The notes beneath the pieces were generated by a model. The model ran no database searches. It saw only the letters and a program-made list of their open reading frames with translations, and had not been told where the DNA came from. Shown piece after piece: positions 9,311 to 11,823 of a stretch of DNA of 64,000 nt. A program made the translations under genes and the position numbers. Position 1 is the first letter of the stretch; each line of letters opens with the position of its first letter. This DNA comes from Halorientalis salina (GTDB taxonomy: Archaea; Halobacteriota; Halobacteria; Halobacteriales; Haloarculaceae), in the NCBI RefSeq assembly GCF_005049285.1, contig NZ_SOSC01000001.1, forward strand, positions 558,001-622,000, given 5' to 3'.

Positions 9311-10663
9311 TTACTCCTCTTCGAGTTCCCGCTCGCTCCGTTCGCCGCCCTGTTCGTCGGCGCGGCGGTTGATGTCGACGAGGTAGTGTTCGAGGATGTC
9401 CCGCCCAAGTAGCAGGGGGTACTCCATGTGATCGCGGTCCTCGACACTCGCGGTGACGGTGTGCTGGGTGCCGCCGACGCCGACGACGAGGTCGACGACC
9501 GGACGGGATTTGCCCGACTTGAGGCTCCCGGATTTCACTTTCACGATGTCCTTGATCGGACCAGTCCCGATATCGGCGGCCAGGCGAGAGTCGATGCTCG
9601 TCCGGGTGGCTCCCGTGTCGGATTTGGCCATCACCGTCTCGGAGCCGCGGGTGCCGCTGAGGACGACCTCCTCGATGTACCCGACGACGACCGGTTTCGA
9701 TTGGGCGTTCTTTTTGGGTCGCGGCATACAGGCGGGTCGGGAATCGTCGAGCGACGCAGCCAGTCGTTCGACCGTCTCGTCGTCGACCTCGCCGCCGGCC
9801 CGCTCGATGGCCAGTTTCGCGATGTACGGCGCGGGGCTTCGGCCCGTCGCCTCGAATAGCCCCTTGAAGCCCGCGGTGGGATTGACTTCGAGGACCTTCC
9901 AGCCGTCAGCCCCCTCGACGATGTCGACGCCGGCGTAGTCGAGGCCGACGATATCGGCGGACCGGCGTGCCATGTCCGCCACCTCGTCGTCGATGCCGGC
10001 GGTCGCGTCCTCGACCGACCCGCCGAGCGCGACGTTCGTGCGCCACTCGCCGTCGGGCGCGTAGCGGTTCATCGCGCCGACGATGGTGTCGCCGACGACG
10101 TAGACCCTGAGGTCGCTGTGACGCTTCTCGTCGTGTTCGAGATATTCCTGGAGAAACGCCTGCCGGGAGCCGACCTGGGGGTTGACCGGGTCGTCCAGAT
10201 CGACCTTCCAGGCACCGCCGCCGTGAGTGCCGATGGCGGTCTTGTAGACCGCCTGGTCGCCGAAGCGGTCGCGGTCGGCGTTGAGTCGGTCGCCCGAGAG
10301 GGCGAGCAGGGCGTCGGGGACGGGGACGCCGTTCCGGGCGAGTGCGACGCCGGTCGCGAACTTGTGCATCGCCGTCAGCGTCGCGCTCGGTGGGTTGAGC
10401 ATCGGAGCGAGCTGTTCGAACGTCTGTGCCAGACCCAGTCCCTCAGCGGGATGTTCGTCCTTCGAGAGGAGGAGTCGGTTGGCGATGACGTCGACGTCCG
10501 GTTCGAGACTCGCGACGCCGTCCTGGATGTCGACGGCCGTGTTCTCGGCTCGAAGCCACGCCGTGTCGTACCCGAGGTCGGCCACCGCGTTGAGAATTGC
10601 CTTGGTTTCTTTGCTGTTGTGAAGGCTGAGGACCCCGACAGTGAGGTCCGCGTTGTCGGCCAT
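9311..10663 (-). CDS. RimK-type ATP-grasp ligase fused to a retropepsin-like (RimB/ATP-dependent zinc protease) domain
   Basis: 450 residues with two domains. Residues 1 to about 290 are RimK/LysX-like ATP-grasp: MHKFATGVALARNGVPVP, the lysine-containing VYKTAIGTHGGGAWKV, and the Mg-binding end VDIVEGADGWKVLEVNPTAG. Residues about 320-440 match the small aspartic-protease-like domain found in RimB-type proteins, with the active-site-like AKSDTGATRTSID and LLLGRDILEHYLVD. RimK enzymes add amino acids, often glutamate, to a C-terminus; the partner protease-like domain is thought to act on the tail. ATG 10663 fits the first beta strand. The tail is very acidic (ERSERELEEE). It is divergent from the aspartoacylase-family gene at 10804; the product of the pair is unknown. 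Confidence 0.85.
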   Translation of the reverse strand: MADNADLTVGVLSLHNSKETKAILNAVADLGYDTAWLRAENTAVDIQDGVASLEPDVDVIANRLLLSKDEHPAEGLGLAQTFEQLAPMLNPPSATLTAMHKFATGVALARNGVPVPDALLALSGDRLNADRDRFGDQAVYKTAIGTHGGGAWKVDLDDPVNPQVGSRQAFLQEYLEHDEKRHSDLRVYVVGDTIVGAMNRYAPDGEWRTNVALGGSVEDATAGIDDEVADMARRSADIVGLDYAGVDIVEGADGWKVLEVNPTAGFKGLFEATGRSPAPYIAKLAIERAGGEVDDETVERLAASLDDSRPACMPRPKKNAQSKPVVVGYIEEVVLSGTRGSETVMAKSDTGATRTSIDSRLAADIGTGPIKDIVKVKSGSLKSGKSRPVVDLVVGVGGTQHTVTASVEDRDHMEYPLLLGRDILEHYLVDINRRADEQGGERSERELEEE

Positions 10664-10774
10664 AGACTGGGTAGAACCCTGCCCGGAAAAAGGGCTACTA
10701 CTCACCCCGTAAAACATCGGGTAAACGCCATTTCGATCGAACGGAGCGTTATCGTGACCGAGCTAGGTCGACTG

Positions 10775-10782
10775 TTTTTATA
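10775..10782 (+). promoter_or_regulatory. TATA box for leaderless aspartoacylase-family gene
   Basis: TTTTTATA lies about 26 bases before ATG 10804. This predicts transcription starting at or next to the start codon and fixes that start. Confidence 0.55.
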
Positions 10783-10803
10783 GCTCCCAGTCCGAGGGCG
10801 GGC

Positions 10804-11823
10804 ATGAGCGAATCACGGGCGTTCACCTACAGCGACGGCGAGGTGGCTCCCGGAGAGACCGCGGACATCCGGTACAGCGTCAGCCAGACGTATCTCGGTG
10901 ATCCCATCCGAATCCCCGTGACGATCATCAACGCCGAGAAGCCCGGCCCGAGGGTGTTTCTCAGTGCGGCGGTCCACGGCGACGAACTCAACGGCATCGA
11001 GGTCGTCCGAGCGGTCGCACAGGAGTGGGCCCACGAGGGGCTTGAGGGGACACTCGTCTGTCTTCCCGTTCTGAACGTCCCGGCCTTCATGGCCCAGGAG
11101 CGGTACCTCCCGATTTACGACCGGGACCTCAACCGGTCGTTCCCCGGTGCGGAGGAAAGCACCAACGCCAAACGGATCGCCGCCCGCATCTTCGAGAACT
11201 TCATCGAACCCTGTGATGTCGGCATCGATTTTCACACGTCGACGCGCGGCCGGACGAACATGCTACACGTCCGGGCGGACACGAACGATCCGGCGGTCGG
11301 TCGGCTGGCCAAGGCGTTCGCCTCGAACGTCATCATCTCCAGCGAGGGTCCGAGTGGTTCGCTGCGCAGGGAAGCCAGTGACGCCGGCGTCCCGACCATC
11401 ACCGTCGAAATGGGGGAGGCCCACCGGTTCCAGCGGAAACTCATCGACCGGGCGCTCGAGGGCGTCGAGAGCGTCCTCGCAGAGTACGGACTGCGCCCGG
11501 CAGAGGCCGTCCACTGGCCGGGGTGGCGGACGATCATCGACGGCAACGAGGAGAAGACGTGGCTGCGGGCCGACGCCGGCGGCCTCGTCGAGATGCACTA
11601 CAGCCAGGGCTCGCTGGTCTACGAGGACGACCAAATATGCACCATCACGAACCCGTTCAAAGCCGAGACCGACACCATTCGAGCCCCCTTCACTGGTGTC
11701 CTCGTGGGAACGGTCGAGAACCCGCTGGTGTACCCCGGGAACCCGATCTGTCACCTGGTTCGACTCGACGAGCGAACGCTGCGAGCCGTCGAACGCGAAG
11801 CGGAGAACGGAGAGCGCTCGTAG
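10804..11823 (+). CDS. Succinylglutamate desuccinylase / aspartoacylase family hydrolase
   Basis: An M14-type zinc hydrolase of 339 residues. Zinc ligands are seen in SAAVHGDELNGIEVV (His, Glu) and in VGIDFHTSTRGR (His); the probable catalytic Glu is in ITVEMGEAHRF. The last 100 residues are the beta-barrel domain of the family. It cleaves an amide bond, but the substrate is not known; arginine catabolism genes are absent nearby. In bacteria, RimK, a RimB-like protease and an aspartoacylase-like hydrolase often occur together. Here the first two are fused and divergent from this gene, so a joint role in making and trimming a peptide-like modification is a reasonable inference. Confidence 0.87.
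   Translation: MSESRAFTYSDGEVAPGETADIRYSVSQTYLGDPIRIPVTIINAEKPGPRVFLSAAVHGDELNGIEVVRAVAQEWAHEGLEGTLVCLPVLNVPAFMAQERYLPIYDRDLNRSFPGAEESTNAKRIAARIFENFIEPCDVGIDFHTSTRGRTNMLHVRADTNDPAVGRLAKAFASNVIISSEGPSGSLRREASDAGVPTITVEMGEAHRFQRKLIDRALEGVESVLAEYGLRPAEAVHWPGWRTIIDGNEEKTWLRADAGGLVEMHYSQGSLVYEDDQICTITNPFKAETDTIRAPFTGVLVGTVENPLVYPGNPICHLVRLDERTLRAVEREAENGERS

Follow-up and report, generated by a model that had tools for sequence, protein, structure and literature searches.

What does a RimK-type glutamate ligase do in a genome that does not encode its known target? In bacteria, RimK extends the C-terminal Glu of a separate protein, bS6 (which ends ...DSEE in E. coli and ...DNADE in Pseudomonas), and RimB removes the tail (PMC11957791, Table 1). 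No ribosomal protein bS6 was found in the source genome of Halorientalis salina, and the window analysed here, a stretch of 64,000 nucleotides of this haloarchaeon, carries the ligase in one chain with a RimB-type protease, divergent from an AstE-family hydrolase. The features of the locus are as follows (positions in the window).

9311–10663, minus strand: RimK–RimB fusion protein, 450 aa from Met19 (domain matches and orthologue starts).
9743–10663, minus strand: RimK-like ATP-grasp ligase domain, residues 19–325 of the 468-aa reading frame (PF08443, TIGR00768 and fold match).
9365–9715, minus strand: RimB-type retropepsin domain, residues 335–451 (PF05618, structure alignment and invariant residues).
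9311–9364, minus strand: variable acidic C-terminal tail ending ...ELEEE, the proposed glutamate acceptor (orthologue tail counts and shuffle test).
10664–10803, no strand: divergent intergenic region between the fusion and AstE genes, exactly 140 bp from Met19.
10804–11823, plus strand: AstE/aspartoacylase-family zinc hydrolase, 339 aa (PF24827, zinc-site residues and predicted fold).

The longest open reading frame of the fusion (9311–10717, minus strand) encodes 468 aa from the first ATG. We favour Met19 (10663) as the start because orthologues begin there and because a preliminary description of this DNA gave 450 aa. That description had read the ligase and the protease-like domain as a single 450-residue chain, which the frame from Met19 and the domain matches bear out. 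The ligase part matches PF08443 (6e-23, 81.8 versus a 21-bit cut-off, residues 118–289) and TIGR00768 (2.5e-44, 151.7 versus a curated cut-off of 143.4 bits, residues 29–292). The C-terminal domain matches PF05618 (3e-10, 40.5 versus a 27-bit cut-off, residues 387–451) and is the sole match to this family in the source genome. The label of PF05618, Zn_protease ('ATP-dependent zinc protease'), is a misnomer for the RimB family. Below-threshold matches to the aspartyl-protease families PF13975 and PF13650 start at residue 359 and take in the DTG of the motif SDTGATRTSID.

RloA of P. aeruginosa is a polyglutamate-cutting retropepsin: D48 is catalytic, K46, R114 and R137 coordinate polyglutamate, and R114A and R137A are the mutants with the strongest effect (PMC12239564; structures 9g58 and 9g59). 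Aligned with 9g58, 9g59 and 2pma, the haloarchaeal domain has D367 within DTGA as the predicted catalytic Asp and K365, R405 and R428 as equivalents of the RloA polyGlu-binding residues. All four are invariant in an alignment of 51 haloarchaeal orthologues (numbering is that of alignment A2 plus 18). Against 9g59, the arginines of 'RPV' and 'DR' face R114 and R137, respectively, with a spacing of 23 in both proteins. RloA differs in being secreted and in having an operon that also codes for RloB and RloC. In an AlphaFold2 model built with the 51 orthologues, the ligase half is modelled well and matches RimK (5zk6, 7qyr) and LysX (5k2m) with a TM-score of ~0.78 normalised to the target, and the RimB half is of low confidence over most of residues 346–450 (450-aa count).

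The ligase domain scores higher with the NCBIfam models for MptN (122 bits) and LysX_arch (119 bits) than with that for E. coli RimK (64 bits), which leaves room for a small molecule or a carrier protein as acceptor. The ligase would then add Glu to a cofactor or an amino-carrier protein, and the retropepsin domain would be a structural or regulatory remnant. Against this stand the scores themselves, which are far under the equivalog cut-offs (350, 275.6 and 331 bits, respectively; the S6-glutamate ligase equivalog PRK10446 is missed at 63.6 versus 331), the invariance of the catalytic and substrate residues of the retropepsin domain, and the separate stand-alone RimK-like paralogues of the source genome. 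We give this reading the smallest chance of all those considered here.

The partner gene matches AstE_AspA_cat (PF24827; 3e-49, 167.5 versus a 25-bit cut-off), and both its zinc-site residues H58, E61 and H144 and its candidate bases E202/E205 are invariant in a 37-sequence alignment. It falls below the equivalog cut-offs for DoeB (88.7/402.7 bits), AstE (29.3/305.7) and aspartoacylase (41.1/180). Its predicted zinc-hydrolase fold is closest to DoeB (6twm), and CphZ (8ein) is also among the matches, at an identity to these two enzymes of only ~16–23%. The gene lies on the other strand behind a shared region of 140 bases, just as the preliminary description had it. Judged by eye, TTTTTATAG within this region looks like an archaeal TATA box; it precedes the ATG of AstE by ~25–30 bp. 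A sigma-70 promoter scan is uninformative for archaea. The source genome holds a second AstE gene of the same clade, 57% identical, on contig C3 (L207:1465-2544, minus strand). PADLOC returned no matches for the fusion or the AstE partner, and we therefore reject a role of the fusion in defence.

Based on a scan of genome contigs, we found 325 relatives and retained 80 named haloarchaeal loci. The fused form is present in all 80. AstE is divergent from it on the same contig in 69, at a distance of mostly 86–266 bp (six gaps are wider, 354 to 1499 bp); at one locus AstE lies 2.4 kb off in the same orientation, and ten gave no AstE match above the threshold, in several cases on contigs that are short or truncated. 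Recurring in 69 of 80 named loci, the divergent pair is not due to chance. When strong matches only (E < 1e-100) were tallied by hand for 58 relatives, 39 had both genes, four AstE only, none the fusion only and 15 neither (Fisher p = 1.3e-10, which kinship among the genomes makes optimistic). The preliminary description had set co-occurrence across haloarchaea beforehand as its own test, and this strong co-occurrence fails to refute it. Across 393 genomes of the phylum, PF05618 frames in the order of the window are ~450 aa or more almost throughout, and those of other lineages are mostly stand-alone frames of 150–300 aa.

Could the two genes be neighbours merely through conserved haloarchaeal gene order, with no joint function? 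Other genes do recur nearby, AlkA-like genes at 54 and sdhC at 43 of the 80 loci (a universal stress protein homologue is found within the fetched flanks of only 8). Moreover, AstE outlasts the fusion in the window's own genus, where G001 has a frameshift in the fusion gene, G002 and G006 retain short remnants of it (L042, L043, L046), and the adjacent AstE is intact. On the other side, genes of the AstE family are linked to RimK and RimB in methanogens, in bacteria and in divergent plasmid copies, and a fusion on a Haladaptatus plasmid lies near an AstE of yet another clade. Mere gene order is therefore a very improbable explanation.

The linkage outside haloarchaea takes the form of split operons. 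In 19 of 20 methanogen loci (L052-L071, read with 1.5-kb flanks), RimB, RimK and AstE follow in a row on one strand. The remaining locus, L056, has RimB and RimK with no AstE match, an absence that is not established because the sequence ends ~550 bp past RimK. In bacteria, whose distribution is drawn from plasmid records only, the order is RimB–RimK–AstE on plasmids of Salinivibrio, Acaryochloris and Phaeobacter and RimK–AstE–RimB on those of Vibrio nigripulchritudo and V. europaeus, and a Photobacterium plasmid has the trio by homology. These operons contain the same three protein families as the haloarchaeal locus, tightly linked, in agreement with the earlier proposal that the three activities belong together; they differ in having all three genes on one strand and in the clades of their RimK and AstE proteins.

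The preliminary description had also stated that in bacteria RimK and RimB are separate neighbours with a hydrolase alongside. This holds for the split operons, but single-chain hybrids exist in bacteria too. For example, the RimBK hybrid of Desulfotalea psychrophila cuts polyGlu, and glutamylation of RpsF by it was not seen (PMC11957791); Thioclava and Aureibacter have single chains of ~457 aa. In these bacterial fusions RimB is N-terminal, whereas in the haloarchaeal proteins it is C-terminal, which sets the latter apart from the RimBK hybrids. In a tree of RimK domains (with long branches and an arbitrary root), the fusions of haloarchaea group together in a single clade with support of 99/98. 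Bacterial and methanogen proteins make up another clade (100/97), which includes the RimB-first fusions of Thioclava and Aureibacter, and the stand-alone haloarchaeal RimK-like paralogues are likewise separate from the haloarchaeal fusions. The reversed domain order and the separate RimK clade suggest that the haloarchaeal fusion arose independently of the bacterial ones. A tree of AstE likewise places the haloarchaeal partner in a clade of its own, separate from bacterial and methanogen AstE. Together with the Haladaptatus case, this makes it seem that the association of RimK–RimB with AstE formed more than once.

With the ligase, the protease and the hydrolase in place, the question becomes what is glutamylated. 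Glu is the C-terminal residue in 79 of the 80 fusions, and 66 end in Glu-Glu. The tails extend 12–33 residues past the last conserved motif, GRD[VI]L..Y, and are hypervariable: 72 are distinct beyond a short core, 44% of the residues past this core are Glu, and the longest terminal Glu run in any of them is not above 4. As background, 342 genes called from 464 kb of the source genome end in Glu in 15% of cases and in Glu-Glu in 1.2%. For the remaining orthologue groups encoded beside the fusion at the named loci, terminal Glu amounts to 0–29%, and the AstE partner ends in Glu in 8 of 70 sequences. Upon shuffling of the distinct tails, 28 ± 4 of 73 end in Glu and 11 ± 3 in Glu-Glu, compared to 72 and 59 observed, although the 80 sequences are related and these statistics are not fully independent. 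Acidic composition by itself does not account for the excess.

This conservation of the terminal Glu is new in this analysis. The preliminary description, which spoke of a tail on a target not known in haloarchaea, had missed the near-universal Glu at the end of a variable linker; it points to the fusion itself as a possible acceptor, and not only to another target. Some relatives do without the tail: among 13 divergent paralogues (48–63% identical) nine end in Glu, and L032, L037 and L038 are without an acidic tail and L039 ends in Gln. The methanogen and bacterial RimB and RimK proteins examined have no such acidic tail.

We put at about even the chances that the locus encodes a self-contained module for glutamylation and deglutamylation, a haloarchaeal counterpart of the Rim system, with its own C-terminus as a likely acceptor. 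We infer the reactions, the substrate and the acceptor role from the sequences. The RimK domain would add L-glutamate to a C-terminal carboxylate at the expense of ATP. The RimB domain would act as a homodimerising retropepsin that cuts oligo- or poly-alpha-glutamate, and the AstE-family zinc hydrolase would act on the oligo-Glu so released or on its capped end. On the fusion's own C-terminus, RimK would extend, RimB would trim or release and AstE would handle the products, a part that AstE-family enzymes play in cyanophycin clusters (PMC10206079). Two facts, the absence of bS6 and the Glu that closes nearly every fusion after a flexible linker, make the C-terminus of the protein itself the likeliest nameable acceptor. 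The tail may then prime the synthesis of poly-alpha-glutamate in a manner akin to glycogenin, or its lengthening and trimming may regulate the protein itself. The former idea, a self-priming poly-alpha-glutamate synthase that unites ligase, endoprotease and acceptor tail in one chain, grows Glu on itself and cuts it free, is a possibility that we raise tentatively.

The precedent from Pseudomonas can also be read differently. Its RimK-family ATP-grasp glutamate ligase and retropepsin-like RimB share the catalytic DTG and the polyGlu-binding positions with the haloarchaeal protein, but they are separate chains that target bS6, and the haloarchaeal fusion differs further in its RimK clade and its acidic tail ending in Glu (PMC11957791, PMC7343187). 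By analogy, the haloarchaeal module may write and erase Glu on one or more other proteins with a C-terminal Glu, ribosomal or cytosolic, with the acidic tail as an intramolecular regulator that sits in the active site of RimB or of RimK. For cleavage, RimB requires six Glu in a row, or five if the run begins with the encoded terminal Glu (PMC11957791, Table 1). No fusion tail ends in more than four Glu in a row, so a tail that has not been extended could be bound and yet escape cleavage. Nevertheless, no such target can be named, and an autoinhibitory tail has no obvious need for Glu as its very last residue. We thus consider this reading rather unlikely.

A further reading dispenses with a protein primer: the module would make and break a free alpha-glutamyl peptide or solute, serving as osmolyte, counter-ion or nitrogen store, and AstE would end the breakdown or remove a cap in the manner of CphZ. 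Pseudomonas RimB does stimulate poly-alpha-Glu synthesis by RimK, yielding free polymer in vitro and in vivo (PMC11957791), and AstE-family enzymes of cyanophycin clusters are dipeptide hydrolases (PMC10206079). The bacterial matches are mostly marine or halophilic, and genes for MscS-type mechanosensitive channels and Mg transporters lie beside some RimB–RimK–AstE operons (L082, L085, L196, L052). This osmotic linkage is sporadic, concerns only a few loci and is kept as a weak hint. As a free polymer leaves the conserved terminal Glu unexplained, we regard this reading as improbable.

If the self-glutamylating module is real, no cycle of glutamylation on a protein tail would have been described in archaea before it, within the literature that we searched. 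That search, which covered freely readable papers, returned nothing relevant on RimK in haloarchaea or on the RimB–RimK–AstE trio, and we make no claim to a first description of the trio. A 2009 amidoligase survey by Iyer and colleagues reportedly may mention such neighbourhoods. In bacteria, RimK and RimB are emerging as a system for ribosome tuning and poly-alpha-glutamate synthesis. A widespread one-chain haloarchaeal version, with an AstE partner and no bS6, suggests that the logic of this system is more ancient, or more readily transferred, than its role in ribosomes implies. Through the conserved C-terminal Glu, a vague target also gives way to one testable prediction. Such a modification could be missed by standard proteomics, because trypsin leaves only the five-residue C-terminal peptide ELEEE in the protein of the window.

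Finally, the scan brought up several minor observations on related genes. Some methanogen matches to PF05618 (those of the query 25–138 type, L072, L077 and similar Methanosarcinaceae loci) seem to have no DTG motif; PF05618 may thus combine active retropepsins with relatives that are inactive. Downstream of the Aureibacter fusion, three small DUF1843 proteins, a radical SAM protein and a methyltransferase are encoded (L086:4492-8820), possibly a peptide-modification cluster. At L050:7659-10575, a 125-aa stand-alone retropepsin-like gene has an integrase-like gene in its vicinity and is followed directly by one for a HEAT-repeat protein kinase; PADLOC gave only a weak PDC-M08B match there (E 0.0064). 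A second stand-alone retropepsin-like frame, of 110 aa and with a DSG motif (L049:6998-7330, minus strand), is flanked by BrxC and PglX in a BREX defence locus and runs in the opposite orientation.
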